Assembly (NCBI GenBank): GCA_947499155.1 | Contig: CANMND010000001.1 | Location: 372,001 to 436,000 of the forward strand | Direction: 5' to 3' | Length of the DNA stretch: 64,000 nt | Source: an uncultured Sphingomonadales bacterium | GTDB taxonomy: Bacteria; Pseudomonadota; Alphaproteobacteria; Sphingomonadales; Rhodothalassiaceae | Shown here: piece after piece, positions 14,767 to 34,979 of the stretch | Layout: the number at the start of each line of letters is the position of its first letter | How positions within the stretch are numbered: the stretch's first letter is position 1 | Position numbers and translations under genes: made by a program | The notes under the pieces: generated by a model | What the model saw: the letters and a program-made list of their open reading frames with translations, nothing else | What the model was told of the DNA's origin: nothing | The model's database searches: none

Positions 14767-15283
14767 TTACAGATCCCTTTCTTATTGTTTGCAGGGCGGA
14801 CCTATAACAACATGGGCAAGGAATTGCAAAAATAATTTTTTGATTACATGAAGAGCGAATAATTACTGTGACAAAACCAAAAATCCCATCACATCCCAAA
14901 ATCATTACTAATTGCCTCATATTCATGCCCTTTTACGGATATAAGAAATTGGTCTGCTACACCGGTGCGGCGATGAAAGTCGCTTTATAAAAAGAATAAA
15001 AAAAAGGGCCGCGACAAATGCCACGGCCCAGGTTCAGGGAGGAAACGCCCATGAAGGGCGGTGAAAAGGGGGGGAGCCCTTTCACACCACAAGACTTATG
15101 TATGAACAAAGTATTTTCAACGTGCTTTTCGACATTCTTTTCATATTTCTTGTTATTTCTGCTTTTTCCACAAAATTTGAATACAAATAATTTATCCAAG
15201 TACGAAAATGTTCGCCTTGCACCCGCTCGACCGGGATCAATTCTTTGGCCGAATCAAACCGCCAAAGCGTGCTTTTCGTTTAT
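14767..15283. other. AT-rich intergenic region containing a small-RNA candidate
   Basis: There are 517 bp without a protein gene. The part at 14767-14990 is AT-rich and should hold the TonB receptor promoter. The part at 14993-15098 holds the structured minus-strand RNA described separately. The part at 15100-15283 is again AT-rich with no ORF of coding character. Short ORFs here overlap RNA stems and are not believed. Confidence 0.6.
14993..15098 (-). ncRNA. Putative small RNA A with anti-Shine-Dalgarno loops
   Basis: On the minus strand an 11-bp hairpin (about 15061-15090) exposes a C-rich CTCCCCC loop. It is followed by a CGCCC/GGGCG hairpin (15046-15060), an unpaired TTTCCTCCCTG, and an 8-bp terminator stem (about 15006-15029) with eight T. 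The TCCTCCC segment complements ribosome-binding sites. The last 50 nt are almost identical to candidate B at about 34.9 kb. The layout recalls alphaproteobacterial small RNAs with CCUCC loops (alpha-r14/cuckoo type); this is resemblance only. The 5' end and promoter are not defined. Alternatively it is a long 3' UTR of the MFS gene. Confidence 0.6.
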
Positions 15284-16504
15284 TTAAGGCTGGACTGGAC
15301 GGTCAGGAGCTGTCGCATAGACGGCAAGGGAAAGAGCAAGGGACAGCCCGAGGAACAAAAATATTGCCCTGTAGGCTTCAACTGGCAAGGCTCCTGCAAT
15401 ATCCACATCATAGAAACCTGCAACAAGCCCGCTCAATGGTTGCAGCACGCCCACACCGGCCATAACCAGCATATTGCTGACCGTCATGCCCCGGCCCACA
15501 GCATGATCAGGATAAAGCGCCCGCGCATGAGCAACAGACACACTGAAATAGCCGGTACCGACCGCAATCAGGAAGAACCATACAGGCACCATCCAGAAGG
15601 GCGGCTTTACGAAGATTGAAAACAAAACGAACACGGCAATCACCACAAGACAGCCAGGAATAACCACCCATTTCCGGGTATTAAAGCGGCGGTCAAGCGG
15701 CCCGAACAGCAATGGGCCGATCACTGCTCCCACTGCCATCAAAAGCAACACATTCCCTTGCCCGACACGGCTTAAGCCATAAACATCGGCAAGATAAGGT
15801 CCACCCCACAAGGCAGTGATTGCAGCAACGCTGCCATAGCCACAAAACAGCAAGGGCATCAAGGGCCACAAACGTTTGTCTTTCATGACAGCCAAAAGAC
15901 CCACGATCCCTGCCCCCAATCCTTCAATCCTGCCGGACGACATGGGTCTGCCATTGATCTTGTCGCCAAGGCCGAACCACAGCATCGGCACAAAAAGGGC
16001 GGTCACAATCGCCACTGCCCAAAAGCTCATGCGCCAACCCATGGCATCCAGAAGGATCGCGAAAGGCGTGGTGGCTAACAGAATACCGGTATTTCCGATC
16101 GCCAAATGCCAGGATGTATAGGTGGCAAAATGCTCTTGCGGAAATGCGCGGGCAAAGATCACCATCGGCCCCATTAATAATGGCGAACAACCAATCCCCA
16201 TCAACGCCCGCCCTATGAACAGGCCCTGCGCTGTCTCGGCCATGGCAAAAACGGCACACCCCACAGCGATGGGTATTGTCAGAATTGCCATAACCCGCCT
16301 TGGACCGAAGCGATCAAGCGCCAGGCCCATGGGAAGCTGCGTCAGTGCAAATGCCAGAAAAAACGCACCTGTGAGTGCGCCCAGTTCTTCGGAACCGATT
16401 GCGATATCCCTGCCCAGTGCGGACGCCAAAACAGCAACTGTATTGCGCAGGAACTGCGACAAAATATAAGTGGATCCCAATATCACGAAAAGACGCAACA
16501 ACAT
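15284..16504 (-). CDS. MFS transporter
   Basis: This 406-aa protein has twelve hydrophobic segments and the MFS loop 2-3 motif GLALDRFGPRR (about 60-70), characteristic of major facilitator permeases. The N-terminal FLRNTVAVLASALGRDI is like the NarK/oxalate-type subgroup of uniporters and exporters, but no substrate residue is diagnostic. A small-RNA-like structure lies about 200 bp downstream of its stop. Confidence 0.85.
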   Translation of the reverse strand: MLLRLFVILGSTYILSQFLRNTVAVLASALGRDIAIGSEELGALTGAFFLAFALTQLPMGLALDRFGPRRVMAILTIPIAVGCAVFAMAETAQGLFIGRALMGIGCSPLLMGPMVIFARAFPQEHFATYTSWHLAIGNTGILLATTPFAILLDAMGWRMSFWAVAIVTALFVPMLWFGLGDKINGRPMSSGRIEGLGAGIVGLLAVMKDKRLWPLMPLLFCGYGSVAAITALWGGPYLADVYGLSRVGQGNVLLLMAVGAVIGPLLFGPLDRRFNTRKWVVIPGCLVVIAVFVLFSIFVKPPFWMVPVWFFLIAVGTGYFSVSVAHARALYPDHAVGRGMTVSNMLVMAGVGVLQPLSGLVAGFYDVDIAGALPVEAYRAIFLFLGLSLALSLAVYATAPDRPVQP

Positions 16505-16645
16505 GAGACGACCCAGCGTTTGTTTGACAAAGATAAAACAACGAAGAAATCAGAGCGCAAATCATGCAACATTTGCCAAGCTGCGCCAACTGCCATAGAT
16601 GATCAGCAATCTGCCCGACTTTACAATCATTAAGAAAAAGCTGCC

Positions 16646-17464
16646 GTGATCTCTTTTCTTTTTACAATGACAGCGCTCGACGCCCTTTATCTGCCGCTGG
16701 CAGTCTCAGCAGCGTTCATCGCCTTTGCGCCGACGCGGGACCGACCGGCCCCTGCAGGAATTGCGGTCGCGTGCGGCTGCCTCATGGGTCTGTTGCTAGT
16801 GCGCACCATGCCGATCTGGCCGCCGATTGGGGGCATAGGCTATTTACCATATATGCTGCTGGCAGGCCTTGTATCCGGCCTGTTTGCGGACCGGCCCCGT
16901 TACCGGTTCGGCGCCACACTGTTTTTTTGTCTGGCCATGCCGATTATTGTCACTTTATTAGTGGCAACAGAAACCTATAGAGGCGGCCCCTGGGGGTCAC
17001 ATAATGTCATTATTCCCCTGCTTGCCCTGTCGGGAATTTATCTCTTTAGCCGCCTGGTCCGGGCTGGCCCCAGATTTTCAGCCGGTCGCGCGTTGTTTTT
17101 TGCCAATGCCGGGCTGACGGCAATCGCTTTTTTATATGGATCACGCCTGGGACTGCATGCGCTAAGCACGACTGCGGCAATCATGGGAACCATTCTGGCG
17201 CTGTCCACCCTTGGCCCACGCTGGTCATTATCCGCAAGCTTTGTCGCTGGAGCTGCCTGGTTCACCCTTGCCACCACCATGATCCTCACCCGCGACCTGC
17301 TGGCCTTTCCCACAGCACTCACCGGGCTCGCCCTGCTTGTGCCTCACACCGCCGCCAGTCTCAGTGGAGATAATCGGCAAGTGCGCTTTGGCCTTGAACT
17401 GGTCATGGGCTCTCTCATAGCCATTTCCGCCCCCGCAGCCTTGCTTATGGGGACAATAAACTAA
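16646..17464 (+). CDS. Multispanning membrane protein of unknown function
   Basis: This 272-aa protein consists almost entirely of hydrophobic segments (eight to nine) with short polar loops. Conserved-looking proline/glycine phrases include MPIWPPIGGIGYLPYM (about 55-70) and TYRGGPWGSHNVIIPLL. The listed start is GTG; ATG at 16667 (residue 8) is also plausible, and neither has a good ribosome site. I do not recognise a transporter or enzyme family. It is divergent from the MFS gene. Confidence 0.7.
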   Translation: MISFLFTMTALDALYLPLAVSAAFIAFAPTRDRPAPAGIAVACGCLMGLLLVRTMPIWPPIGGIGYLPYMLLAGLVSGLFADRPRYRFGATLFFCLAMPIIVTLLVATETYRGGPWGSHNVIIPLLALSGIYLFSRLVRAGPRFSAGRALFFANAGLTAIAFLYGSRLGLHALSTTAAIMGTILALSTLGPRWSLSASFVAGAAWFTLATTMILTRDLLAFPTALTGLALLVPHTAASLSGDNRQVRFGLELVMGSLIAISAPAALLMGTIN

Positions 17465-17620
17465 GAGAAAATGTCAGACGATATCAAAGTGCTATTCACT
17501 CAAAAAATCAGTTGCAGAAATATATTGTAATAATAGAATTTTTTATTGCAGATCTCTTTTCTATAGAATAATCTCAGTTCTCTTGAATTAATTCTTTTTA
17601 ATAAAATTGGAGAATTGGAC

Positions 17621-18145
17621 GTGATAAGAATACTTATCTCGGGTGCGGTAGCATTATCTCTTGGTGGATGCGCCAGTATCCTTAGTGGGACATCTCAGGA
17701 AGTAACATTTAATACGTCACCCAGTGAAGCAGACTGTGTCTTGATCCGTGATGGCAAACAAATTGGTCAGTTATCTACGCCTGGGACACTCGTCATAAAG
17801 AAAACAAAGCACGATATAGAAGTCGTCTGCAATAAAGAGGGTTATCAGGAAACCCGCCATTTCGTAAAATCTGAAATACAAGACGCCACCTGGGGCAATA
17901 TTATCTTGGGCGGTGGTGTAGGCTGGGCAATTGACTCAGCATCCGGTGCGGATAATAAATATGCTGAATATGTCAATATCACTCTAACCAGCGACACGGG
18001 CATTTCAGTTCAGGATCAAGGCACTCCCGCACCTCTGTCTGAAGAAACCATTGTAGAAGAAGAGACCATAGTGAATGAAGATGCGTCTCCTGTTGATGCC
18101 CAAGACGCTGAGGCTGAAAATATGAAGCCCGAGTCCAATAGCTGA
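17621..18145 (+). CDS. PEGA-like lipoprotein
   Basis: This 174-aa lipoprotein starts at GTG 17621, with GGAG at 17609-17612; TTG 17615 is too close to that site. The signal peptide ends in the lipobox LGGC (residues 14-17). The mature N-terminal domain has FNTSPSEADC...DGKQIG...TPG, the PEGA-like beta fold found in surface lipoproteins. A glycine-rich segment GNIILGGGVGWAIDSASG (about 94-111) follows, then an acidic low-complexity tail of about 45 residues. Base composition is lower in GC than its neighbours. The function is unknown. Confidence 0.75.
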   Translation: MIRILISGAVALSLGGCASILSGTSQEVTFNTSPSEADCVLIRDGKQIGQLSTPGTLVIKKTKHDIEVVCNKEGYQETRHFVKSEIQDATWGNIILGGGVGWAIDSASGADNKYAEYVNITLTSDTGISVQDQGTPAPLSEETIVEEETIVNEDASPVDAQDAEAENMKPESNS

Positions 18146-18252
18146 AATGCATTTGAATCGCTGGCATAGTATTTGCCGCATAATCCATAGAAAAATAACT
18201 CTTCTTTTATAGGGAGTGGTGCTGCGTCTCCCTCTTATCGTCCTTGAGTCAC

Positions 18253-18291
18253 AAGCCCGGTACGCACCTCAATACGTCCCGGGTTTTTTTC
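18253..18291 (+). terminator. Terminator after the PEGA-like lipoprotein
   Basis: The arms CCCGG-ACG and CGT-CCGGG, with a 10-nt loop, are followed by seven T at about 18284-18290. The gene ends about 110 bp upstream. Confidence 0.75.
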
Positions 18292-18299
18292 GCAACAAC

Positions 18300-18785
18300 T
18301 TACTGTGATACCAGCATATTTTTACGAGTGTAAATGGCCTCATCTATTCTTTGGAACGCCAGCTTGTAAAGGTCAGGGTCGTAGAGGATAGTGCCCTCTT
18401 CCAATAGCGAACCCAAAGCCGCATTTCTTGATGAAACGAGCGCAAAACTCAGGCGAATGCGAACCAGTTCACCACTGAAAGTTTCGATAAAAGCCGTTGC
18501 CCTGGTATTTTCCCGGCTGGAAACGCCCAGTAGGATCGCCCCAATTCCCGTTGTATTTTTTGTCGGGCTTTCTGCAATCACCAGTCCAGATTCAATGTCA
18601 CCACTTTCAATAAAAAAGCCAAGATCCTGCATGACGGATATTACAGAGGCGTATGCTATCTTTTTACTCGCATCAAAATTCCTTGTCTGGATCGATTGTA
18701 TTTCCAATGGCGTGAGAACGGGCTGCATGTCTTTGGAACAAGACGACACGATAACGCTGAGCATGACGCATAAAATAAGCCTCAT
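18300..18785 (-). CDS. Lipoprotein of unknown function
   Basis: The ATG at 18785 was chosen (161 aa) because it places a signal peptide and lipobox VSSC at residues 13-16; the frame is open back to 18854. The mature part has a conserved-looking block SVMQDLGFFIESGDIESGLVIAES and a middle segment RIRLSFALVSS. No enzyme motif is seen. It is convergent with the PEGA-like lipoprotein and has similar lower GC. The start is uncertain. Confidence 0.65.
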   Translation of the reverse strand: MRLILCVMLSVIVSSCSKDMQPVLTPLEIQSIQTRNFDASKKIAYASVISVMQDLGFFIESGDIESGLVIAESPTKNTTGIGAILLGVSSRENTRATAFIETFSGELVRIRLSFALVSSRNAALGSLLEEGTILYDPDLYKLAFQRIDEAIYTRKNMLVSQ

Positions 18786-19038
18786 CCCAACCGCCAGATT
18801 ATAGATATTAACTGCATAGGCTGTATTTCGCTCTAAACCGTCTCGCTTTGACACAAATATGTACTGTCACTGCCCTGACCTGCACGCCACTGTCTACGTA
18901 TATCACGCGCATAATCTTACTGCTCCAGTACACCATTATCGTGCACAGAAAAGCAACCTACAAGGGTTATTAATATAAAATTAAAGCCAAAGCGAGACTT
19001 ATTGTCACATATGAGACAGGGACAAAAAAAGTCCCTTC

Positions 19039-20394
19039 TCAATAATCATGTTCGACAAAAATACGGTTGATATCGCCTTGCCATGAGCCATGCCACGAGG
19101 TCAGCATTTCGTCGGCCAGGGTGCGGTTATCTTCAACAATCTGTTGCAAGGTGTCCAGAAACAACGCTTCGGATTCGCCGTGGTTATTGAGGCGTTTGCG
19201 AGCGTTCAGGCCCCGTGCGGCAATAGCCAGAATATCACGGGCAAGGTCACGGGCCGTACGTCCGTCAGGGGTCATCGCTGCTAGACCCAATTTCGGGACG
19301 TCATCACGGAATCGACCCATGGCCTCAATTGACCAGTCTTTGACCACCTGCCAGGCCGCATCCTGTGCGGTTTCATCATAAAATAAACCAGCCCATAGTG
19401 CGGGGAGTGCACATAGCCTGTCCCACGGCCCGCCATCGGCTCCACGCATCTCAAGAAATGTCTTAAGCCGCACTTCGGGAAAGACAGTTGTCAGATGATC
19501 TTCCCAGTCCTTTAAAGTGGGACGCATACCGGGCAGATCTCGCAGCTTTCCATCCAGAAAATCACGAAATGACTGTCCGGCCACATTATGCATCACCCCA
19601 TCACGGATAACGAAATACATGGGGACATCAAGGGCATAGTCGGCATAGCGCTCAAAACCAAAACCGTCTTCAAATACAAAGGGCAACATACCGGTGCGGT
19701 CGGGGTCTGTATCTGTCCAGATATGGCTGCGATAGGACTGAAAGCCGTTGGGCTTGCCTTCGGTAAAAGGAGAATTGGCAAACAACGCGGTTGCAAGGGG
19801 CTGCAAGGCGAGGCCGATGCGGAATTTCTGCACCATATCCGCTTCAGATCCGAAATCCAGATTCACTTGCACCGTGCAGGTACGCAACATCATATCAAGA
19901 CCCAGTGACCCGCGTGTCGGCATATAGGCGCGCATGATATCGTAGCGCGCCTTTGGCATCACCGGGATATCGCTGCGCTTTGCAGTCGGATGAAATCCCA
20001 TGCCAAGAAAGCCGACATCCAGGTCCTCACCCACGGCCTTGGCCTGTGCCAGATGGCTATTCACCTCGCGACAGGTCTGATGCAGATTGTCCAATGGTGC
20101 GCCCGACAGCTCAAACTGCCCGCCCGGTTCCAGAGTGACTGACGCGCCATCTTTAGTAAGAGCAATCAGATGCTCGCCTTCATAAACGCCCGTCCAGCCG
20201 AACCGGGTAAACCCGGCAAGAATTGCACCAATGCCGTTTTCACCATCAAAGGCGACAGGTGCATTTGTTTCCCGATGAAACACGAATTTCTCGTGCTCGG
20301 ACCCGATGCGCCACTGTTCTCTCGGTTTTGATCCCCTGGCCAATGCCGCGACCAGATCGGCCTTGCCCAGAAGATGATGCCCATGATCGGCCAT
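19039..20394 (-). CDS. gshA: Glutamate-cysteine ligase, plant/alphaproteobacterial type
   Basis: This 451-aa enzyme makes gamma-glutamylcysteine, the first step of glutathione synthesis. ATG 20394 was chosen because GGGAG lies about nine nt upstream; an in-frame GTG lies 18 nt earlier. Family blocks include IGSEHEKFVF (about 31-40), TLEPGGQFELSG (about 89-100), the TCTVQVNLDF substrate-site segment and FLEMRGADGG. A hairpin with a seven-base A/T loop spans the stop codon (19013-19040) but lacks a T-tail. rsmE lies 58 bp upstream on the same strand. Confidence 0.94.
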   Translation of the reverse strand: MADHGHHLLGKADLVAALARGSKPREQWRIGSEHEKFVFHRETNAPVAFDGENGIGAILAGFTRFGWTGVYEGEHLIALTKDGASVTLEPGGQFELSGAPLDNLHQTCREVNSHLAQAKAVGEDLDVGFLGMGFHPTAKRSDIPVMPKARYDIMRAYMPTRGSLGLDMMLRTCTVQVNLDFGSEADMVQKFRIGLALQPLATALFANSPFTEGKPNGFQSYRSHIWTDTDPDRTGMLPFVFEDGFGFERYADYALDVPMYFVIRDGVMHNVAGQSFRDFLDGKLRDLPGMRPTLKDWEDHLTTVFPEVRLKTFLEMRGADGGPWDRLCALPALWAGLFYDETAQDAAWQVVKDWSIEAMGRFRDDVPKLGLAAMTPDGRTARDLARDILAIAARGLNARKRLNNHGESEALFLDTLQQIVEDNRTLADEMLTSWHGSWQGDINRIFVEHDY

Positions 20395-20451
20395 AAAGCC
20401 TAACTCCCTCACACAGCTATACTGCCCCGAGTTAGGTCGAAACGCGCCGGT

Positions 20452-21225
20452 TTACAAGTCCGCATCTTTTTCATCATGGACGGAACGCAAGACTGACAGC
20501 GCCATCAGGGCTGCTGTCTCTGCCCTGAGAATGAGACTGCCAAGGCTAACAGGAACCACAGCATTATGAGCCCGGATCAAGGCACGTTCGTCCTCATCAA
20601 AGCCCCCTTCCGGTCCGATTAGAATACCCGGACTCACGCCAGAGTCACACGCTTGTGATAAACCATGACGCATCCGGGACAGGATTGGGGGCGCATCGCC
20701 CGCCTCATCACAAAAATACAAGGGTTGCGAGTCCGGCCAGTTCCGCAAAAAATCCTGAAGGCTGAGCGGATCCTTGATATCGGGCAGGCTGAGGCGAGAG
20801 CATTGCTCTGCCGCCTCACGGGCCGTACTCAGCATACGGTCCTGCCTGACGCGCTCTGTGTTCGTTCGTGCGGTCACCACCGGCTGCATGCATCCCGCGC
20901 CAAGCTCAGTAGCCTTTTCCACGACCATATCCATGGGCCCGCGTTTCAAAGGGGCGAATGCCAGAACTGGCCCATAGGATGCATGATCTGAGTCTTGCGA
21001 TCGGGTGCATGAGCCAACCTCAACCGTGCCAACCTTTTTGCGGGCATCCCGGATATGCGCGATCCATTCCCCGTCACGGCCATTAAAAAGGGCCAGACTG
21101 TCACCAACGCCAAGACGCATCACCGACAACAGATAATGTGATGCGGCCTGGTCCAGAGTTAGAAACTGGCCCGCCGACAAATTTTCTTCGACATAAAGTC
21201 GAATGCTTGTATTCCTCTTGCGCAT
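20452..21225 (-). CDS. rsmE: 16S rRNA m3U1498 methyltransferase
   Basis: This 257-aa SPOUT-class methyltransferase methylates U1498 of 16S rRNA. It has an N-terminal PUA-like domain (about 1-70, with FLTLDQAASHYLLSVMRLGVGD) and a C-terminal knot with VVEKATELG and the SAM site LIGPEGGFDEDE followed by SLGSLILRAETAA. It is in the usual alphaproteobacterial position upstream of gshA. Confidence 0.95.
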   Translation of the reverse strand: MRKRNTSIRLYVEENLSAGQFLTLDQAASHYLLSVMRLGVGDSLALFNGRDGEWIAHIRDARKKVGTVEVGSCTRSQDSDHASYGPVLAFAPLKRGPMDMVVEKATELGAGCMQPVVTARTNTERVRQDRMLSTAREAAEQCSRLSLPDIKDPLSLQDFLRNWPDSQPLYFCDEAGDAPPILSRMRHGLSQACDSGVSPGILIGPEGGFDEDERALIRAHNAVVPVSLGSLILRAETAALMALSVLRSVHDEKDADL

Positions 21226-21333
21226 GGCTTCCTGCGTGCCCTTTTTTTATGTGGACGGTCAAGATGCTATATCTGTACAACAGCGTCAGCCATCGCTAGC
21301 ATTCGCACCTGTTCATAAAAGGGGAGGCGTTTC

Positions 21334-22626
21334 ATGCGGCTTGCTGCACTCATATCTTCACTCCTGCTGCTGACCGGTCTCACGGTCAGTGCCAGTGCCT
21401 ACACCATTATCCATGCAGGAACCCTCATCACTGATGCGCGCGAAGCGCCGCTTCATGAAAAATCCATCGTCATCAACAAGGATGGCGTGATCGAGCGGAT
21501 CGTAGACGGCTATATTCCAGCTAACGACAGTGACGGCACAGTCATTGACCTGAAAAACGCTACCGTCCTGCCCGGCCTTATCGATGCGCACACCCATCTT
21601 TTGTCTGAACTTAATCCAAAAGCTGCATTATTGCGCCTTCAAATGAGCAAGGTCGATGCTGCCATGCAAGGCGCGCTTTATGCGCGCCGCACGGTTGAGG
21701 CTGGCTTTACCACGGTTCGTGATCTGGGCGGCGCGGCTGAGGCCATTTACGGCCTGCGCGACGCAATTGCAAAGGGCTATGTCCCCGGTCCACGTGTGAT
21801 TGCGGCTGGAAACAGCATCTCAGGCACTGGCGGCCATGCAGATGTGGACGGCTATAACGCCGACATTCTCCACATGATGACGTCTGAGATCATATGTGAT
21901 GGACCCTATGACTGTCGCAGGGCAGTCCGTACGGCGATCAAATATGGTGCCGATGTGATCAAGATCACCGCAACTGGCGGGGTTTTATCCGATTCCGCAA
22001 CAGGTCTTTTGCAGCAGATGAAAGACGACGAAATTGCCGAAATTATCTCCACTGCCCACAGCATGGGACGCAAGGTAGCCGCCCACGCCCATGGCGCAGA
22101 CGGCATTAATGCCGCCTTAAGGGCCGGGATCGATTCCATTGATCATGGCTCCTTGCTGGATGCCCAGTCCATCAAGCTGTTCAAGCAAAACGGTGCCTAT
22201 CTTGTGCCAACCCTGATTGCCAGCAAGACTGTGGTGGACAAGGTGCAGGAAGGTGACTTTCTTCCGCCATCCGTCCGTGAAAAGGCCCTTGGCCTGCCAG
22301 CGCTCGTGATGGATAATGTCGGCAAGGCTTATAAGGCTGGTGTGAAAATCGCCTTTGGTACAGACAGTGGCGTTTCAGCCCACGGCACCAATGCCGAAGA
22401 ATTCCTTCTGATGCGCGATATTGGCATGAGCAACAAGGACATGCTGATTGCCGCAACAGTTAATGCCGCCGATCTTTTGGGGCTGGCTGACAAAACCGGC
22501 ACGCTGGCAGAAGGCAAGGCCGCTGACATCATTGCCGTCAAGGGCAACCCTCTGGACGATATCGAAAGCCTGCTTGATGTGAACTTCGTCATGGCGTCAG
22601 GACGGGTAGCGAAAAACACTTTCTGA
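21334..22626 (+). CDS. Exported metal-dependent amidohydrolase
   Basis: This 430-aa member of the amidohydrolase superfamily has a signal peptide (residues 1-22, ending SASA). Metal-ligand motifs are DAHTH (His86, His88), the lysine of VIKITATGG, AAHAHG, DHGS and GTDSG, as in imidazolonepropionase-like and Sgx9260-type prolidases. It probably cleaves N-acyl or X-Pro-type amides in the periplasm. GGGGAGG lies just upstream of the start. The lyase gene follows by 27 bp on the same strand, so they may be cotranscribed. Confidence 0.88.
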   Translation: MRLAALISSLLLLTGLTVSASAYTIIHAGTLITDAREAPLHEKSIVINKDGVIERIVDGYIPANDSDGTVIDLKNATVLPGLIDAHTHLLSELNPKAALLRLQMSKVDAAMQGALYARRTVEAGFTTVRDLGGAAEAIYGLRDAIAKGYVPGPRVIAAGNSISGTGGHADVDGYNADILHMMTSEIICDGPYDCRRAVRTAIKYGADVIKITATGGVLSDSATGLLQQMKDDEIAEIISTAHSMGRKVAAHAHGADGINAALRAGIDSIDHGSLLDAQSIKLFKQNGAYLVPTLIASKTVVDKVQEGDFLPPSVREKALGLPALVMDNVGKAYKAGVKIAFGTDSGVSAHGTNAEEFLLMRDIGMSNKDMLIAATVNAADLLGLADKTGTLAEGKAADIIAVKGNPLDDIESLLDVNFVMASGRVAKNTF

Positions 22627-22653
22627 TTTCCACGCGACAAAAGGAACCTCGGC

Positions 22654-23535
22654 ATGTCTCTAACACGCGGCCCCTTGCGGTCTGTCTTGTACATGCCGGG
22701 GTCAAATGATCGGGCGCTTACCAAGGCCCCGACCCTTCCTTGTGATGCTGTTATACTTGATCTGGAAGACGCGGTCGCACCCGATGCAAAAGACAGTGCC
22801 CGCGCCCTTGTCCGCACTACTCTCGACACGGTCGGATTTAAAGGCCAGGCAGTCGTCGTCCGCATCAACAGTCTGGACGGGCCATGGGGTCAGGATGATC
22901 TCGCCGCCTTTACGGCCTCTCCCATTGATGCACTTTTGTTACCCAAGGTCGAGTCACCGGAACAGCTTCTGAAATTGGCGCTCGCCATGACAAAACGCGG
23001 CTATGATGACCGGACCGCCATCTGGGCGATGATGGAAACACCGCGCGGCATTCTCGATGTTGCAACCATTGCAAGAGGCACGCCCCGCCTGCAATGCCTG
23101 GTCATGGGAACAAACGATCTCGCTAAGGACTTGCGGATTGCACCGACAGCGGACCGCGAAGCGTTCCAGACCAGCTTCGGACTCACCATCCTCGCCGCTC
23201 GTGCCAATGATCTGACTGTACTGGACGGAGTCTTTACCGACCTCAATGATGAAGCGGGCCTGATGGCTGAATGCCAGCAGGGAAAGTTATTGGGCTTTGA
23301 CGGCAAGACCCTCATCCATCCCAAACAAATAGACGTCGCCAACGCAACCTTTCGCCCCGGCAAGAACGAAATCCAACAGGCCAAGCGCATGCTGGAGACC
23401 TGGAAAGAGGCCCTGTCCAAAGGTCAGGCCGTCGCAACCCTCGACGGTAAAATGATCGAACAGCTCCATGTGAATGAGGCCAAAAGGCTGATCGCACTGC
23501 ATGAAATTATCGAGGCGCGGGGGCGGGCTGGATGA
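22654..23535 (+). CDS. CitE/HpcH-family CoA-ester lyase
   Basis: This 293-aa TIM-barrel enzyme splits or forms malyl/citramalyl/beta-hydroxyacyl-CoA esters. Motifs are the N-terminal LYMPGSNDRAL, the metal and CoA site LDLEDAVAPDAKD, the catalytic-side segments VVRINS and MMETPRGIL, and GFDGKTLIHPKQI. No citrate lyase genes adjoin, so citE itself is unlikely. The last ~110 coding bases are duplicated perfectly about 1.5 kb downstream. The stop is followed by alphaproteobacterial palindromic repeats. Confidence 0.9.
   Translation: MSLTRGPLRSVLYMPGSNDRALTKAPTLPCDAVILDLEDAVAPDAKDSARALVRTTLDTVGFKGQAVVVRINSLDGPWGQDDLAAFTASPIDALLLPKVESPEQLLKLALAMTKRGYDDRTAIWAMMETPRGILDVATIARGTPRLQCLVMGTNDLAKDLRIAPTADREAFQTSFGLTILAARANDLTVLDGVFTDLNDEAGLMAECQQGKLLGFDGKTLIHPKQIDVANATFRPGKNEIQQAKRMLETWKEALSKGQAVATLDGKMIEQLHVNEAKRLIALHEIIEARGRAG
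23386..23498 (+). repeat. 113-bp perfect direct repeat, copy 1 (inside lyase gene)
   Basis: These 113 bases match 24908-25020 without a difference. The identity breaks at both sides into diverged sequence, and to the left weaker homology extends to about 23350. It encodes the C-terminal segment of the lyase. Confidence 0.95.
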
Positions 23536-23541
23536 GCATGG

Positions 23542-23564
23542 ATTCCCCGGTCAAGCCGGGGAAT
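23542..23564. repeat. Alphaproteobacterial palindromic repeat
   Basis: This is a perfect 9-bp inverted repeat (ATTCCCCGG / CCGGGGAAT) around TCAAG. It is the widespread dispersed type whose spurious translation reads VIPRLDRGI. It lies just past the lyase stop. Confidence 0.85.
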
Positions 23565-23605
23565 GACAAAAGAAGGAGACGCGGAATGACAAAAGAAGGA
23601 GACGC
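23560..23605. repeat. Two tandem 23-bp repeats
   Basis: The unit GGAATGACAAAAGAAGGAG + ACGC occurs at 23560-23582 and 23583-23605. A degenerate third copy starts at 23606. They extend one arm of the neighbouring palindromic repeat. Confidence 0.9.
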
Positions 23606-23628
23606 GGAATAACAAAAGCAGGAATAGA

Positions 23629-23662
23629 GGGACTGACAAGGATAAAGGCAAAAGTCAGTCCC
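23629..23662. other. Hairpin without T-tract
   Basis: A 9-bp perfect inverted repeat (GGGACTGAC, 23629-23637; GTCAGTCCC, 23654-23662) has a 16-nt loop. It could end the lyase transcript by folding, but lacks the T-run of a rho-independent terminator. Confidence 0.5.
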
Positions 23663-23749
23663 AGCGGATTCTCCTGTATAAAAAGAACAGCGTCCTTGAT
23701 CCTCTCAAACATGCGTGTTCCAGATAAGACTTGGTACTTGGCCTAATGT

Positions 23750-24857: not shown

Positions 24858-24865
24858 TGACCGAA

Positions 24866-25171: not shown

Positions 25172-25225
25172 CCATTTTTCACTTGGATGCACGAACATTT
25201 CTGTTCTGCACCCAAATCCCGGACT

Positions 25226-28200: not shown

Positions 28201-28429
28201 CAAGCTGACCCGTCGTAAAATCCTGTGCGACCGCTACAGGCGTCATGACAGTTGACGCAAGTAGCGCTGTCAATGTTGTCGCCGGTGCAAAAGAGCCAAG
28301 AGCGGCCAGACTCGTCAGCCCTGCAGCAGACAAAACGCGCGTATGCTGACGAAAAGCCGACACCCGACGTGATCGCATAATACTCCGTCCGGGCGACTTT
28401 GACGTGCTGGGCAAATTCCCATTCCTCAT
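25226..28429 (-). CDS. Oar-like TonB-dependent receptor with carboxypeptidase-regulatory domain
   Basis: This 1067-aa outer-membrane protein has a long N-terminus and a signal region ending near AVAQ (about residue 69). An Ig-like carboxypeptidase-regulatory domain follows (about 73-150, GTVSDTSGSPISGIAVTI...GRFNFARLP). Next come a TonB box EEIVVLG (about 166-172), a plug (with YNATDTRDFIGLMN and GFQAEFGRTTGSVVNLVTRKGTN) and a large barrel ending LSARIQF. AGGGG lies six nt before the chosen ATG. This Oar/SusC-like class often imports peptides or oligosaccharides; the ligand is unknown. The first ~17 residues before Met18 may not be part of the signal. Confidence 0.92.
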   Translation of the reverse strand: MRNGNLPSTSKSPGRSIMRSRRVSAFRQHTRVLSAAGLTSLAALGSFAPATTLTALLASTVMTPVAVAQDFTTGQLVGTVSDTSGSPISGIAVTISNDQTGYSATSTTGADGRFNFARLPIATYKVLVNAPFGEDPSDEIQVPAGSVQRLSFTVATSAAEATGLEEIVVLGTRAISTRKDFLGQEGGIVVNTDDLVARVPLQRSVTDITLLAPGASSGDSAFGSQPSLAGSSVAENLFYVNGYNATDTRDFIGLMNTIPFEFFQQIDVKTTGFQAEFGRTTGSVVNLVTRKGTNDFHVGASAFYTPEGLRSNSKKRDTTDGFRSNDRVTDTEINTWISGALVKDRLWFYGLVSFRDNELQDFSNSTFTDRTDDDPVWGLNIDGVILDDDMFGYHSFTYTHIDDKRDIVDSILPFDRATGTINREADPVTQTFERGGTTNILKYTGVIRDWFSISGLFGQSDSRGRDLSNVSDIPQINDLRSGSNIVTGNTGGSIVDAINNDKRRMWRGDADITVNNFFGDHQFRVGFDREVRRSAEQTSFSGGFRYVVFADGSGLNRFDSNGDGISNTGVDLGAPVIRRDFRTTGGSFESVLKGYYIQDRWQTPIENLTLNVGFRLEDQTSKNVNGEAFAKFDGGFDFRTGFTYELDEGRSRIYGFVGKTHFAIANNTNIRLAGEEIFNEEFFRLVTDTIDPANVDASIGEFIGLDIVSPPGVQPASTLVNKSLENQRQIEYSLGYDFSVGSNWSFGIRGVYRDLGQGLEDGALDAGFRQFAADNGLDVAAAEAAFTGFQTFVLYNPGSDVTVDVRTDLAPADMVAFLGGDADGDGLVEATLTAEQIGVPKISRKYKAIELVWERAFVDGWSFQGSYVLSRSSGNTEGGVKSDNGQSDTGLTQDFDTKGLTEGAKGRLPNDRRHTIKAFGSYALTEQLTLGANLTIQSGRGFGCQGVHPTDGIAAQFGASSFFCKLDENNRPNENAESRLTPRGSILESGWTKQLDLSAVFRPDVSFLPDGVAPEFRIDVFNIFNTNDVTDLQEFGEFASGQIRNTFGEPTGFIQARTVRLSARIQF

Positions 28430-29045
28430 CTTATTCCCCTCATTTCAAAGGCATAGAGATAAAAAGATATTAAGCCTCAATCTATTAACCACCTTTTTGC
28501 GTAATAAAATACATACACTTAACGGGTTAATATGCGGCCACAATTCTCATTGTGCGGCCCATTAGTTTAATTATTGCCCACACCCTTTAGGAGCAAGGAT
28601 TAATTTAAAACTCTCTCTACTAAACCCCGTAAGTAAATCTTCTGGTTGGAAAAAAATATGCGCCCGCTGTTGGACTTGCGTCTCATGTCGATGGAAAATT
28701 GGGAGAACCAAATTACGAGTCTGTCATGCGGGGAGCCGGATTGAGGCCCACATTCACATCATAAAGAACGCCGACAGCGGACTGGAGGGCACAAATTGTT
28801 ATCTTCCACATATGTCCTGTTAAACCTGTAACGGCAGCTTCCTGTTATCTTCTCAGCCTGTTGCGAGTTGTTTGCAGAAATCTCACCTTGCCTCGCCCTT
28901 GTCTGGCCGTTACACCTGTTAGGGAATTCCAGATGAGCCGGGACAGGCATATGGGGATGATGTGGTTGGGAATCGGTAAAGCGGTGCCTTAACCACGCTC
29001 TTCATGGCTGTCCATTTTGGCTTTTCCGCTAGAAGGAGCTTGCTG
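28430..29045. other. Divergent intergenic region between Oar-like receptor and sdhC
   Basis: About 616 bp carry the promoters of the receptor and the sdh operon. The left half is AT-rich; a 9-bp hairpin with a 2-nt bulge lies at 28536-28559. The short minus-strand ORF at 28759-28950 has no ribosome site or family resemblance. I see no RNA gene or riboswitch. Confidence 0.5.
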
Positions 29046-29441
29046 ATGGCCAGCACACGTCGTCCGCTATCACCGCATTTACAGATCTGGCGCTGGGGAC
29101 TGCATATGGCGCTCTCCATCGCCCATCGCACCACCGGCGTCGGCAGTAGCCTTGGTGCCCTGATCATTGTCTGGGGGCTTGTGGCCATTGCGGCAGGGCC
29201 GGACAGTTTTAGCACGTTCAAGATGGTGACCACCTCGCTTTTGGGGCGCATCGTGCTTTTTGGCATCACCCTTTCCATGATGTTGCATATGTGTACCGGT
29301 GTTCGTCACCTGGTGATGGATACGGGACGTGCCCTTGATATCAAAACCAACCGGCAGACGGGCATTCTTGCCATTGTCGCTGCCATTGTGCTGACGCTGG
29401 GCCTGTGGGTTGCCGCCTACTGGTTCGCCGGCCTGATTTAA
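29046..29441 (+). CDS. sdhC: Succinate dehydrogenase cytochrome b556 subunit
   Basis: This 131-aa membrane anchor of complex II has three transmembrane helices. It carries SIAHRTTGVGSSLG (about 26-39) and the heme b ligand region LHMCTGVRHLVMD (about 81-93). ATG 29046 was chosen because AGAAGGAG precedes it; the frame is open to 29004. It is the first gene of sdhCDAB. Confidence 0.95.
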   Translation: MASTRRPLSPHLQIWRWGLHMALSIAHRTTGVGSSLGALIIVWGLVAIAAGPDSFSTFKMVTTSLLGRIVLFGITLSMMLHMCTGVRHLVMDTGRALDIKTNRQTGILAIVAAIVLTLGLWVAAYWFAGLI

Positions 29442-29455
29442 GGGAGAGCACAGCA

Positions 29456-29839
29456 ATGTCAAAATTCCGTACACCAATCGCCACAGCACGAGGATTGGGC
29501 TCAGCCCGTTCCGGTGCCCGCCACTGGATGCACCAGCGCGTAACCGCTGTTATCAATCTGTTGCTGCTGTTGTGGTTTGCCGGATCGGTTGTCTCCCTTG
29601 CAGGTGCTGGCTATGCCGACATCATCTGGTGGGTCCGTGATCCTATCGTCACAGTCCTGCTGGTCTTGCTGATTGCCAACCTGTTTTATCACATTCGCCT
29701 TGGCCTGCAGGTGGTGATTGAAGATTATGTGAAAAGTGACGGGACCAAGGCCTTAAGCCTTATCCTCCTCACCATGGTCACTCTCGTCCTTGCCCTGCTT
29801 GGCATTGTTTCAGTCCTCAAAGTGTCTTTCGGGGGATAA
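29456..29839 (+). CDS. sdhD: Succinate dehydrogenase hydrophobic membrane anchor
   Basis: This 127-aa anchor subunit has three membrane helices, with [12 protein letters not shown] near 24-35 and the heme/quinone-side [13 protein letters not shown] near 79-91. AAGGGAG precedes ATG 29456. It lies 14 bp after sdhC and 5 bp before sdhA. Confidence 0.94.
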
Positions 29840-29844
29840 AGTTC

Positions 29845-31635
29845 ATGTCCGCTGCCTATCCAATTATCGATCATCAATTTGACGCCGTGGTCGTTGGTGC
29901 CGGTGGGTCCGGTCTCCGCGCGACGCTGGGCATCTCGCAAGCCGGTCTCAAGACTGCCTGCATCACCAAGGTTTTCCCCACCCGGTCACATACAGTGGCC
30001 GCGCAGGGCGGTATCGCCGCCGCCCTAGGCAATATGGGAGAAGACAATTGGAAATGGCACGCTTATGACACGGTGAAGGGGTCTGACTGGCTGGGCGACC
30101 AGGACGCCATCGAATATCTGTGCCGCGAAGCCCCCAAAGCTGTGTACGAGCTTGAGCATTTCGGCATGCCATTTTCCCGCACCGAAGAAGGCAAGATATA
30201 TCAGCGCGCTTTTGGTGGCATGACGACCAAGTTTGGCGAAGGTCCGGCGGCGCAGCGCACCTGTGCTGCTGCTGACCGTACAGGTCACGCCATGCTGCAC
30301 GCGCTTTATCAGCAAAGCCTCAAGAACAACACCACCTTCTTTGTCGAGTACTTCGCCATTGACCTCATCATGGACGATGAAGGCCAGTGCCGGGGCGTGA
30401 TTGCCATTTGTCTTGAGGATGGCTCCATCCACCGCTTCCAGTCCCATGCAACGGTGCTGGCAACTGGTGGTTATGGCCGGGCTTATTTCTCTGCCACATC
30501 CGCTCATACCTGTACCGGAGACGGCGGCGGCATGGTGTTGCGCGCCGGCCTGCCCTTGCAGGATATGGAATTTGTTCAGTTTCACCCCACAGGTGTCTAT
30601 GGTGCCGGTGTTCTGATCACTGAAGGCGCGCGCGGTGAAGGCGGTTATCTCACCAACTCTGAGGGTGAGCGCTTCATGGAACGCTATGCTCCCAGCGCCA
30701 AGGACCTGGCCAGCCGTGACGTGGTTTCACGCTCGATGGCGCAGGAAATCCGTGAAGGCCGGGGCGTGGGCGAGCATAAAGATCATATGCATCTCCATCT
30801 CGACCATCTCGATCCTGAGATTTTGGCTGAGCGCTTGCCCGGTATTTCTGAGTCGGCGCGGATTTTTGCCGGTGTCGATGTCCGCAAGGAGCCGATCCCT
30901 GTGGTCCCCACGGCCCACTATAATATGGGCGGTATCCCCACCAACTATCATGGGGAAGCCATTAATCCCACAGCCGATGACCCTGACCGTATCGTACCGG
31001 GCCTTTTTGCTGTTGGCGAAGCTGGCTGTGTGTCCGTTCATGGCGCCAACAGGCTTGGATCCAACTCGCTGATTGACCTGGTGGTCTTTGGCCGTGCAAC
31101 GGCGTTCCGTGTCGCTGAAACCGTAAAACCACAGACCAATCACAAGCCCCTGCCCAAGGGGAATGAGGAAATGGCGCTTGGTCGGCTTGATCGTTTCCGT
31201 CACGCCAATGGCAGCTCTCCAACGCCGGAAGTGCGCCTGCACATGCAAAGAACCATGCAGGCCAATTGCGGCGTGTTCCGTACTGAAGAAGTCTTGCAGG
31301 AAGGCAAGGCCAAAATGGATGAGGTCTATGCCCGCATGGATGATATCCATGTGACGGATCGATCCCTGGTATGGAACTCTGACCTGATTGAGACGATGGA
31401 ACTGGATAATCTCATCGGCCAGGCCATGGTGACCATGCATTGCGCTGAACATCGCCATGAATCCCGTGGAGCCCATATGCATGAGGACTATCCCAAGCGC
31501 GACGATGAAAACTGGATGAAGCACAGCACAAGCTGGTTCGACAAGGGCAAAGTGCGGATCGGATCCCGTCCGGTTCACAGCTACACCATGTCAGACGAAT
31601 TGGAATATGTGGAGCCGAAAGAGCGGGTTTACTAA
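29845..31635 (+). CDS. sdhA: Succinate dehydrogenase flavoprotein subunit
   Basis: This 596-aa catalytic subunit oxidises succinate to fumarate in the TCA cycle. It shows the FAD motif [11 protein letters not shown] (about 12-22), the covalent-FAD histidine in [11 protein letters not shown] (about 47-57), the substrate site HPTGVYGAG...TEGARGEGG, and the closing [10 protein letters not shown]-like phrase [18 protein letters not shown]. Its length is typical. Confidence 0.98.
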
Positions 31636-31671
31636 TCACTGCACTTTCAAATGGCTGAGTGAGGACAAAAA

Positions 31672-32454
31672 ATGGCGAAGTTCGCATTGCCGAAAAATTC
31701 GAAGGTCAAAAAGGGCAAATATGTTGCCGCGCCCGAAGGGACAAAGACCATTCGCAAGGTCCATATCTATCGCTGGAACCCCGATGACGGGGAAAATCCC
31801 AGAATGGATACCTATGAACTGGATGTTGAAAAGTGCGGCCCCATGGTTTTGGACGCCCTGATCAAGATCAAGAATGAAATGGACACGACCGTCACTTTCC
31901 GGCGGTCCTGCCGTGAAGGCGTGTGCGGATCATGCGCCATGAACATCAACGGCAGCAACACACTGGCCTGCACCATGGCGCTTGATGAAGCAAAGGGCGA
32001 TGTGGTGATCCACCCGCTGCCGCATATGCCGGTGGTGAAGGATCTTGTGCCGGATATGTCCAATTTCTACGCACAATATGAGTCAATCGAGCCATGGCTT
32101 CAGACCAAGTCCCCTGATCCAGCGGGACAGGAACGGCTGCAATCCCATGAGGATCGCGTGAAGATCGACGGACTTTATGAGTGCATCTTGTGTGCGTGCT
32201 GCTCCACTGCCTGCCCCAGCTACTGGTGGAATTCTGATCGCTATCTGGGTCCTGCGGTATTGTTGCAGGCCTATCGCTGGCTGGCCGACAGCCGCGACGA
32301 GATGAAGGGCGAACGGCTTGATAATCTGGAAGACCCCTTCCGACTTTATCGCTGTCACACCATCATGAACTGCACCAATGTCTGCCCCAAGGGCCTCAAT
32401 CCTGCAAAAGCGATTGCTGAAATCAAGAAAATGATGGTTGAGCGTCAAATCTAA
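31672..32454 (+). CDS. sdhB: Succinate dehydrogenase iron-sulfur subunit
   Basis: This 260-aa subunit carries the three iron-sulfur clusters of complex II. The 2Fe-2S ligands are CREGVCGSC and the later NTLAC; the 4Fe-4S and 3Fe-4S sites are [12 protein letters not shown] and [14 protein letters not shown]. It follows sdhA by 36 bp and ends the operon before a clear terminator. Confidence 0.98.
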
Positions 32455-32475
32455 GACACCATCGCACAAGACAAT

Positions 32476-32515
32476 TAAATAACCGCCGCACTTCCTGTGT
32501 CGGCGGTTATTTTTC
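32476..32515 (+). terminator. Terminator of the sdhCDAB operon
   Basis: The arms AATAACCGCCG and CGGCGGTTATT, with a short inner stem, are followed by a T-rich tail about 25 bp past sdhB. Confidence 0.88.
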
Positions 32516-32649
32516 ATGATCTGGCCTGATAATAGGGCAATTTCCAGGCTCGCCCTCTCCTTGCCCTTGCCAGGCCGGGCCATCTGTACTAGCGCTTTCC
32601 CTGACTTGCCCCATATGATGGGCACCATATTTTGGGAGCTGATATTAAG

Positions 32650-33261
32650 ATGACAGATAGTCCTGCAACAGGCACTGACACCACTGCGTCCCGCCCAAAA
32701 GCGAGCGCCCGGCAACGGTTTCTGACCGAACTTGGCCCCTTGCTGGTGTTTTTTATCGTGAACTGGCAAGCAGATATCTTTGCGGCGACCGGCGCATTTA
32801 TGGTGGCGATGATCATTGCCATGATCTGGTCATGGCTGAAAACCCGGCATATTGCCCCGATGATGTGGGTATCAACAGCGCTTGTGGTTGTCTTTGGCGG
32901 GCTGACCATCTGGCTTCATGATGAAATGTTCATCAAACTGAAGCCGACAATCATTTATCTGTTTTTTGCCATCGTGCTGCTGACAGGGCTTTTTTCAGGA
33001 CGCATGTTCCTGCGCACTGTCATGGGACCGGCCTTTCCGCCCCTTGCTGACCGGGGGTGGGTCCTTCTGACCCGCAACTGGATACTGTTTTTTGTCGCCA
33101 TGGCGGTTCTCAATGAGATTGTCTGGCGTTCGGTTTCAACTGATATGTGGGTAGCGTTCAAAACATTTGGCGCGATCCCGATCACCTTCGTGTTCGCCAT
33201 TGCCCAAACGCCGGTGATCATGAAACACCAGACTGAGCCGGTTGAAGAAAGCGAGAGCTGA
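32650..33261 (+). CDS. YciB/IspZ inner-membrane protein
   Basis: This 203-aa protein of the septation-protein-A family has a charged N-terminal 20 residues and five to six membrane helices. Family phrases are LGPLLVFFIVNW (about 29-40), MWVSTALVVVFGGLTIWLHDE (about 72-92), and RNWILFFVAMAVLNEIVWR. It takes part in envelope maintenance and division in other bacteria; the mechanism is unclear. ATG 32650 is preferred over the TTG at 32632, which overlaps the GGGAG site. Confidence 0.92.
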   Translation: MTDSPATGTDTTASRPKASARQRFLTELGPLLVFFIVNWQADIFAATGAFMVAMIIAMIWSWLKTRHIAPMMWVSTALVVVFGGLTIWLHDEMFIKLKPTIIYLFFAIVLLTGLFSGRMFLRTVMGPAFPPLADRGWVLLTRNWILFFVAMAVLNEIVWRSVSTDMWVAFKTFGAIPITFVFAIAQTPVIMKHQTEPVEESES

Positions 33262-33279
33262 ATACTGGGACCCAGGCCC

Positions 33280-33570
33280 TCAGCCCGCCCATTCGTCCAT
33301 GGCGCGGGCCATTTTTATGTCGCGCTCACTCACCCCGTCGGCATCATGGGTGGAAAGTGTCACTTCAACCCGGTTATAGACATTGAACCATTCCGGATGG
33401 TGATCCATCTTTTCCGCCAGCAAGGCCACTCGTGTCATAAAGCCAAAGGCGGCATTGAAATCCTTGAAACTGAATTTTTTCTGGATGGCATTGCGGCCAC
33501 TCACCTCTTGCCAGCCGTCAAGGGATTGAACTGCGGTCTCCCGCTCCTTACCTGTCAGAGCCCTGATCAC
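33280..33570 (-). CDS. phhB: Pterin-4a-carbinolamine dehydratase
   Basis: This 96-aa enzyme recycles 4a-hydroxytetrahydrobiopterin. The hallmark [21 protein letters not shown] (about 61-80) is complete. It normally serves phenylalanine hydroxylase, though no phhA is in the window. It is divergent from the zincin gene (66 bp). Confidence 0.94.
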
Positions 33571-33636
33571 AAGTTTCTCCTTTATTCACTGTCCAATAAT
33601 AAGACTGTCCCACCATGGCGCCAAATTGGGTGAGAT

Positions 33637-34065
33637 ATGACAAAGGATCAAGTAACAAATACCCAATGGGATGGACAAAGTGCCCCCAGTGCTGATGACC
33701 TGGCAAGAATAGCAGAAAATGCCATGGCCTTTGTCCCGACCGAATTTCGTGCCTATCTTGGCGATATCGTTTTTCGTATCGAGGATTTTGCCGACAAGGG
33801 CACCCTTGATGCGCTCAGGATTGAGAATCCGTACGGCCTGCTTGGCCTCTATCATGGCATAAGTCTTGATCAAAAAAGCATCTTGCATGCCGTACCGCAG
33901 CCCGACATGATCTTTCTTTATCGTCGCCCTATTCTGGCATATTGGGCGGCGAGCAATGAGACCCTGGAAGACATCGTGCGTCATGTCCTCATTCACGAAA
34001 TTGGTCACCATTTCGGCCTGTCAGATGAAGACATGCACGCCATTGACGAAAGCGGCGACGACTGA
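33637..34065 (+). CDS. Zincin_1 metallopeptidase-family protein
   Basis: This 142-aa single-domain protein has a zinc-binding helix HEIGHHFGLSDEDM near residues 120-133. The third ligand is probably the Asp or Glu of the following DMHAIDE. The family (PF06262-type) is short, cytosolic and of unproven peptidase activity. It has the usual size and C-terminal placement of the motif. Confidence 0.88.
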   Translation: MTKDQVTNTQWDGQSAPSADDLARIAENAMAFVPTEFRAYLGDIVFRIEDFADKGTLDALRIENPYGLLGLYHGISLDQKSILHAVPQPDMIFLYRRPILAYWAASNETLEDIVRHVLIHEIGHHFGLSDEDMHAIDESGDD

Positions 34066-34095
34066 CCTCTGGTTTGCTTTTCCCTATCGGACCGC

Positions 34096-34836
34096 TCAAC
34101 GCCCCAAAAGCGCATTTACAAAATTCGGCACCATTTCTCCCGCCGGGCCATAATGCCCCTCATGGAAAAAATGCTGGCCGTCCGACGGCTCCATATTGAT
34201 CTCAACAGTGTGGATGTCCAGTGCTCGTGCTGCTGCAACCAGGCCCGCTGCCGGATAAACAGACCCTGATGTGCCAATGGATATAAAGAGGTCCGCCTCG
34301 TTGAGCGCCTCATCAATCTCATTGAGATAAAGCGGTATCTCGCCAAACCAGACAATATGGGGGCGGAGACAGTCATGCAAACCGCAGTCTGTACAACGGT
34401 CATGAGGATTAATGGACTCTCGCCACGACAGAACAGACCCGCAGGAAAGGCACCGGGCCTTTGCCAGTTCTCCATGCATGTGCAGCAGGTTCTTGCTGCC
34501 CGCGCGTTCATGAAGATCGTCAACATTCTGGGTGACCACCATTACCTTGCCGTCCAGTTCCGCCTCTAGCTCTGCCAGCGCATAATGGGCTTTATTGGGC
34601 GCGACCTTCCCCAACTCCTCGCGACGCATGTTGTAAAAGTCCTGAACCAATGAAGGATCGCGGGTGAAAGCCTCTGGTGTCGCCACGTCCTCAATCCGGT
34701 ATTTGGCCCACAATCCTCCTGAATCCCGAAATGTAGCAAGGCCAGATTCCGCCGAAATTCCCGATCCGGTTAACACCACTATATTGCGAAATCCGGTCAC
34801 TCTGTCACAGTTGTTCATCTTATCTTCATCTGCCAT
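34096..34836 (-). CDS. cobB: NAD-dependent protein deacylase (sirtuin)
   Basis: This 246-aa class III-type sirtuin removes acyl groups from lysines, consuming NAD. It has GSGISAESGLATFR (about 24-37), the YNMRR site whose Tyr and Arg read succinyl/malonyl lysines, the catalytic His in HMHG, and a four-cysteine zinc finger (CLSC...CTDC). ATG 34836 was chosen; ATG 34818 is possible. The 5' end is next to the divergent small-RNA candidate B. Confidence 0.93.
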   Translation of the reverse strand: MADEDKMNNCDRVTGFRNIVVLTGSGISAESGLATFRDSGGLWAKYRIEDVATPEAFTRDPSLVQDFYNMRREELGKVAPNKAHYALAELEAELDGKVMVVTQNVDDLHERAGSKNLLHMHGELAKARCLSCGSVLSWRESINPHDRCTDCGLHDCLRPHIVWFGEIPLYLNEIDEALNEADLFISIGTSGSVYPAAGLVAAARALDIHTVEINMEPSDGQHFFHEGHYGPAGEMVPNFVNALLGR

Positions 34837-34889
34837 ATTCATGATTAGTGTCATGTGATGTGCACGTGCTTTATTTTGCAATGCGTATC

Positions 34890-34979
34890 ATTGAACGCCG
34901 TTCTGCCCACTCCCCCTCGGCAGATCGGGTTTTCCTCCCTGAACCTGGGCCGTGGAATTTCCACGGTCCTTTTTTTTGG
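34890..34979 (+). ncRNA. Putative small RNA B with anti-Shine-Dalgarno loops
   Basis: Three compact stem-loops are visible. The first is TCTGCC / GGCAGA (about 34901-34924) with an exposed CACTCCCCCTC loop. The second is a short GGTT / AACC hairpin exposing TTCCTCCCTG. The third is a 9-bp terminator stem (about 34947-34970) followed by eight T. A -10-like TATCAT lies at 34886-34891. The loops complement Shine-Dalgarno sequence, as in alphaproteobacterial CCUCC-loop small RNAs. The last 50 nt nearly repeat candidate A. No coding capacity is credible here. Confidence 0.65.

Follow-up and report, generated by a model that had tools for sequence, protein, structure and literature searches.

Two putative alpha-r8 small RNA siblings in a probable Iodidimonas genome and their likely TonB-dependent receptor targets

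We studied a 64,000-nucleotide stretch of DNA (the window) from an uncultured Sphingomonadales bacterium of the Rhodothalassiaceae (contig 1 of assembly GCA_947499155.1), which contains two small RNA (sRNA) candidates, A and B. A and B are probably paralogous, trans-acting sRNAs of the alpha-r8 family in an Iodidimonas species, with the mRNAs of TonB-dependent receptors, which take up nutrients at the outer membrane, as their likeliest main targets. (We infer the genus: the genome groups with Iodidimonas muriae JCM 17843 and alpha proteobacterium Q-1.) The basis for this is that A and B belong to the family by sequence and structure, that their gene neighbourhoods are partly kept in relatives, that the structure covaries across the family, and that the complement of their common core is enriched at receptor gene starts.

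Transcription of each sRNA would begin at a promoter of its own and end at an intrinsic terminator. Together with Hfq, whose gene is present in this genome and on which the sRNAs probably depend, the single-stranded core UUUCCUCCCU would pair with the Shine-Dalgarno region of mRNAs and block their translation; the main target group would be the set of receptor mRNAs. A preliminary description of this DNA had proposed an sRNA pair that represses translation. The anti-Shine-Dalgarno character of the pair stands, while repression is presumed only from the Caulobacter sRNA SisA and from the statistics of target sites.

Membership of the alpha-r8 family

The preliminary description had called for a search with Rfam and covariance models. 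The Rfam model RF00519 (suhB/MmgR, alpha-r8) matches A at 15066-14991 with 59.5 bits, above the curated cut-off of 41. B scores 38.7 bits (E = 1.3e-6 when 401 bases are searched), under the cut-off, which speaks against its membership. With a second model (R1), built on 42 members that all lie outside the window's taxonomic family, A scored 73.2 bits and B 56.7 bits (E = 6.5e-13) across the whole window, and the next best match had 12.8 bits. That margin is partly a matter of construction: most of the 42 rows came from a search with a 20-mer near the block that A and B share. The RF00519 scores are unaffected by this bias.

A and B also carry several of the features by which alpha-r8 RNAs have been described. 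The internal 10-mer that serves as a criterion for the family (PMC12559287) is present as an exact UUUCCUCCCU in both RNAs, and across 55 aligned members 9 of its 10 positions, all except the fifth, are invariant. A Rho-independent terminator follows directly after the core in both. Before the 10-mer, alpha-r8 RNAs have a weak hairpin; A can form it (GCCC/GGGC), and in the predicted fold of B this four-pair hairpin is not formed and another hairpin stands further upstream. Finally, an FGase gene beside one copy is usual but not essential in the family, and sisA of Caulobacter adjoins one (PMC12559287); here the two FGase genes are on contigs 7 and 5 and A and B on contig 1.

As the preliminary description had noticed, A and B have 25 identical bases in common. 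This block, TTTCCTCCCTGAACCTGGGCCGTGG, lies at 15045-15021 (minus strand) in A and at 34931-34955 (plus strand) in B; allowing up to 3 mismatches, it matches the window at these two places and none of 100 dinucleotide shuffles. Within the block, the window's B differs from the B of I. muriae (locus L016) at 4 positions and A from its counterpart (L012) at 1. The identity of A and B within a single genome could hint at gene conversion between them.

Both terminators consist of a 10-pair stem followed by the eight-T tail that had been noted earlier (Table 1). The 5' arms have the same nine bases in A and B. Of the 10 pairs, 6 are identical, 3 are altered on the 3' side only (GC/GU, UG/UA, GU/GC), and just the innermost (CG/AU) is changed on both sides, so the earlier claim that the two arms compensate each other is for the most part wrong. 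Across the family, the compensatory changes that the preliminary description had looked for in relatives are clear. For 13 named pairs in 55 members, 89.1% of the cells are paired, 86 cells are altered on both sides (mean of 28.6 in shuffled alignments), and 9 pairs show two-sided change, which 13 of 500 shuffles attain. The covariation score is 0.446; it falls to 0.227 in shuffled alignments and does not exceed 0.181 if the arms are slid. Pairing is kept in 97% of cells in the terminator and 71% in the short hairpin. Because terminators covary for termination alone, this is better evidence for an element that is transcribed and terminated than for a regulatory fold.

The members for these comparisons came from core matches (62 by a looser pattern; 56 distinct ones by another pattern with a T-run filter, with L073 excluded by hand). 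The alignment of 55 (A1) leaves out L092, and the alignment of 42 behind R1 (A3) also leaves out L046 and L065. L017 and L003, which are weak RF00519 matches that lack the core, are in no member set. A MAFFT alignment (A2) of six RNAs from A loci misplaced the 5' hairpin and was excluded from the counts.

The preliminary description was right about a related pair of sRNA genes with an anti-Shine-Dalgarno sequence and intrinsic terminators, and the pair is retained in related genomes. They are not an original two-member family: A is Rfam's MmgR/alpha-r8 and B appears to be a diverged sibling below the cut-off. The literature already has the family and its 10-mer, and for Caulobacter also the multiple siblings and the targeting of receptors (PMC12559287). 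Our literature search, in which most subscription journals were not covered, found no publication on an Iodidimonas sRNA. As far as these searches go, the novelty lies in A and B themselves, in the score of B below the threshold, in a receptor signal in the genus, and in a C-rich loop.

Table 1. Features of sRNAs A and B (window coordinates)
Feature	Position	Strand	Remarks
sRNA A	14998..15087	-	alpha-r8 (MmgR, RF00519) family, ~90 nt, putative 5' end
sRNA B	34898..34977	+	probable diverged alpha-r8 sibling, ~80 nt, putative 5' end
10-mer core of A	15036..15045	-	UUUCCUCCCU, putative anti-Shine-Dalgarno seed
10-mer core of B	34931..34940	+	UUUCCUCCCU
Promoter-like element of A	15093..15120	-	TTGAAA (15120-15115), 16-base spacer, TAAGTC (15098-15093)
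Possible -10 region of B	34882..34891	+	TGCGTATCAT; -49 from core in 2/5 B-type loci
5' hairpin of A	15060..15088	-	C-rich loop CTCCCC(CCC); predicted fold -12.4 kcal/mol, 9/500 shuffles as low
5' hairpin of B	34902..34924	+	loop CACUCCCCCUC; predicted fold -8.1 kcal/mol, 4/500 shuffles as low
Intrinsic terminator of A	14998..15029	-	10-pair stem 15029-15006, then T8
Intrinsic terminator of B	34947..34977	+	10-pair stem 34947-34969, then T8

Core complements at the starts of receptor genes

In Caulobacter, compensatory point mutations have shown that the alpha-r8 RNA SisA represses the TonB-dependent receptor mRNA CCNA_03574 by pairing its 10-mer with a site before the start codon; a sponge RNA, CrfA, counteracts SisA (PMC12559287). 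The four siblings SisA-D of Caulobacter crescentus resemble A and B in being dispersed, with the same 10-mer behind different promoters, and they target TonB-dependent receptors (PMC12559287); the window's genome has two siblings, and the same target group is likely for them.

In the genus, receptor starts tend to carry sequence complementary to the core. In the window's own genome, the predicted duplexes with the 10-mer were stronger at 30 receptors than at 114 open reading frames (ORFs; p = 5e-4). For I. muriae and Q-1 together (70 receptors and 111 ORFs), the difference had p = 1.3e-12 and remained after correction for Shine-Dalgarno strength (t = -5.7); GGGAGGA, the complement of the core, was found at 13 of the 70 receptors and at 1 of the 111 others. 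(One locus, L196, was unscored; 71 of the 73 Plug matches were taken and two fragments at contig ends excluded.) A third comparison combined the own genome with I. muriae, without Q-1, and used ORFs of at least 300 amino acids: for 57 receptors and 331 other ORFs, the duplex p was 2.4e-11, the regression t after Shine-Dalgarno strength was -5.9, and GGGAGGA was present at 9 of 57 and 1 of 331. Receptor leaders that carry GGGAGGA include those of L149, L151, L154 and L140. These counts include orthologous receptors from different species, which are not independent of one another.

A and B might be true alpha-r8 RNAs that act elsewhere, for instance on polyhydroxybutyrate (PHB) genes as MmgR does, with the receptor signal reflecting only strong Shine-Dalgarno sites. 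Receptors do have stronger sites (mean -7.95, against -6.02 for the others), and the genome has phasin and PhaC_N genes. As just described, the excess for the 10-mer outlasts the correction in both larger comparisons. Furthermore, among starts that contain GGAGG, the full GGGAGGA is more frequent at receptors, at 9 of 18 as compared to 1 of 19 others in the own genome and I. muriae (p = 0.0028) and 17 of 32 as compared to 2 of 20 in all three genomes (p = 0.0015). The phasin start has just GGAG, and simple complementarity gives no sign of a phasin target. We regard the explanation by Shine-Dalgarno strength as doubtful.

Several results count against receptor targeting nonetheless. In the own genome, once Shine-Dalgarno strength is taken into account, no receptor effect is left for a 20-nt seed (t = -0.8); in that comparison of 30 with 114, at least one start, that of the receptor beside A (L153), was placed inside the gene. 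The own genome on its own also gives a weaker signal for the short core: GGGAGGA is at 4 of 30 receptors and 1 of 155 others, the t for the 10-mer is -2.4, and given GGAGG the counts are 4 of 9 and 1 of 8 (p = 0.18). With the strictest background of neighbouring genes, the comparison in all three genomes becomes 17 of 32 against 2 of 10 (p = 0.068). By eye, no complement of the core is evident ahead of the likely ATG of the receptor gene beside A. Also, genes, starts and background genes were all called by a simple script. On balance, from the sequences at hand, receptor targeting by A and B is likely.

Perfect sites of the form AGGGAGGA-N2-13-ATG occur 6 times in the own genome, compared with 2 matches of the reversed-pattern control. 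Of the 6, one is the strand opposite A; among the 5 others, 1 precedes an ORF of more than 100 amino acids (L110). In Q-1, 2 of 6 perfect sites precede TonB-dependent receptors (L101 and L107). Because those two sites prompted the receptor test, Q-1 cannot count as entirely independent data in the comparison of 70 with 111. A first sorting of receptors by motif found only 14 receptors and was superseded.

Promoters, neighbouring genes and relatives

Both sRNAs lie between unrelated genes, as first described: A has an MFS transporter gene on one side and a TonB-dependent receptor gene on the other, and B is flanked by genes for a Sir2 deacetylase and a low-molecular-weight tyrosine phosphatase. 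A scan with the standard sigma-70 consensus gave no promoter at A or at B in the direction of the sRNA. By inspecting the A loci, we picked out the pattern TTGAA-N17-TANNTY, which five of the six A loci have at a distance of 75-76 bases upstream of the core, and which occurs in 9 of 11200 random 110-base windows. The earlier start of A, at 15098, falls inside the probable -10 element of this pattern, and the RNA more likely starts near 15087. The pattern is absent from all 5 B-type loci, and B has no recognisable -35; the two loci with TGCGTATCAT at -49 are those of the window's genome and I. muriae. Alpha-r8 siblings in Caulobacter likewise have unrelated promoters (PMC12559287).

At E <= 0.001, RF00519 matches 7 of 7 genomes of the taxonomic family, the own genome included (6 above the cut-off), and 135 of 147 sampled genomes of the order (120 above the cut-off), many of them at least twice. 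It also matches 2 of 14 control genomes, one above the cut-off, so single weak matches mean little. An exact search for the 25-mer in other genome contigs, from which records near the own genome may be excluded, returned no match; a 20-mer with one degenerate base found 48 stretches.

Around A and B, gene order is partly kept in relatives. At A loci, the MFS gene is present in L012 and L009 and the receptor in L012 and L011; neither has a match in L010 or L013 within the stretch examined. The B block runs IspA, Sir2, B, phosphatase. Q-1 (L166) keeps all three genes and has an additional ORF that separates the phosphatase from the B element. I. muriae (L016) keeps IspA and the phosphatase, and Sir2 has no match in its whole genome. 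Sir2 is beside a B-type copy in two genomes of another genus (L014 and L018), and in Rhodothalassium (G006) the second RF00519 copy and Sir2 are on different contigs.

These neighbourhoods bear on whether A and B could instead be cis-acting 5' leaders (attenuators) of the receptor and phosphatase genes downstream. At both loci the next gene is on the same strand, and the receptor start is about 230 bases past the terminator of A. L012 and L011 likewise have the receptor after A, and I. muriae has the phosphatase after B. Against this, the family form is kept beside different genes, the stretches of L009, L010 and L013 have no receptor match, an ORF intervenes in Q-1, and relatives in the family act in trans (PMC12559287, PMC8401924). 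We consider leaders very unlikely.

A further concern is that B might be a functionless terminator with a decayed sRNA copy. B is below Rfam's cut-off and lacks the family hairpin in its predicted fold, and the Q-1 element at the same locus lacks the 10-mer. Yet the terminator of B is perfect, the core is intact in the window's genome, I. muriae, L014 and L018, and a C-rich loop is found in all three Iodidimonas elements at this locus. Decay of B is thus unlikely, and we continue to treat it as a diverged sibling.

Other elements turned up in these searches. L003 (contig 3 of the own genome, 49830-49912, minus strand; 31.2 bits) was considered as a third copy, but it has no 10-mer and was not counted; it came from an RF00519 search at E <= 10, which gives matches in 14 of 14 control genomes too. 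It has CCCCTCCTTCTTCTG where the 10-mer would be, plus a terminator, and may be a different sRNA. L004 (same contig, 28924-29000, minus strand) has CCTCCCTATGTTGAACTTTGG and then a strong terminator with T8; it scores 21.3 bits, below the cut-off, and is another possible anti-Shine-Dalgarno sRNA. An alphaproteobacterial metagenome-assembled genome (L045, 2258-2519) has a tandem pair of near-identical alpha-r8 copies about 200 bases apart.

The C-rich loop and comparison with known sRNAs

Upstream of the core, the C-rich stretches of both RNAs fall in predicted hairpin loops, as first described; in B this stretch is CACTCCCCCTC. We folded the 45 bases upstream of the core in 57 members, after excluding 5 duplicate records. 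The predicted loop contains CCC in 7 of 11 members from the window's taxonomic family and 2 of 46 others (Fisher p = 3.9e-5, which is no true probability as members are related), and CCCC in 5 of 11 and 0 of 46; the 46 are a sample biased toward the search pattern. The C-rich 5' loop would thus be an alpha-r8 feature mostly seen in this taxonomic family. At the B locus the run in the loop is similar in three Iodidimonas elements (ACUCCCCCUC in the window, GAUCCCCUCU in I. muriae and GAUCCCCUCC in Q-1), and the loops sit on different stems. Three sequences are few, however, and for the hairpins of A from I. muriae and B from Q-1 many shuffles fold equally well (133 and 103 of 500 reach as low an energy). 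C-rich UCCC motifs are also found in LhrC of Listeria and in the staphylococcal UCCC-motif sRNAs; these belong to a different phylum from the host of A and B, and we claim no sequence relation.

Compared with MmgR of Sinorhizobium meliloti (the 'suhB' of RF00519), A and B have the same core, the terminator after it, the size class and the Rfam model. MmgR is a single copy of 77 nt (PMC12559287, PMC8401924), in contrast to two copies here with an added C-rich 5' hairpin loop. SmelA075 and SmelA099 of Rhizobiales also combine an anti-Shine-Dalgarno loop motif with variable stems, but every one of their three or four hairpins has a CCUCCUCCC loop (PMC3927594). A and B do not contain CCUCCUCCC; each combines a single C-rich loop with a single-stranded core.

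The element at the B locus of Q-1 (L166, about 1305-1385, minus strand, beside Sir2) has the C-rich loop AUCCCCUCC and a terminator, without UUUCCUCCCU. Tentatively, the alpha-r8 RNAs of this lineage may have gained the C-rich 5' loop as a second seed, which in the B lineage can take over, as perhaps in Q-1. If so, an element such as that of Q-1 would be a sibling with shifted targets.

In any case, two Iodidimonas sRNA genes can be placed in a characterised family with a testable set of targets, and B shows that Rfam's cut-off can miss diverged alpha-r8 siblings. Control of TonB-dependent receptors, known from Caulobacter, may be more widespread among alpha-r8 RNAs.

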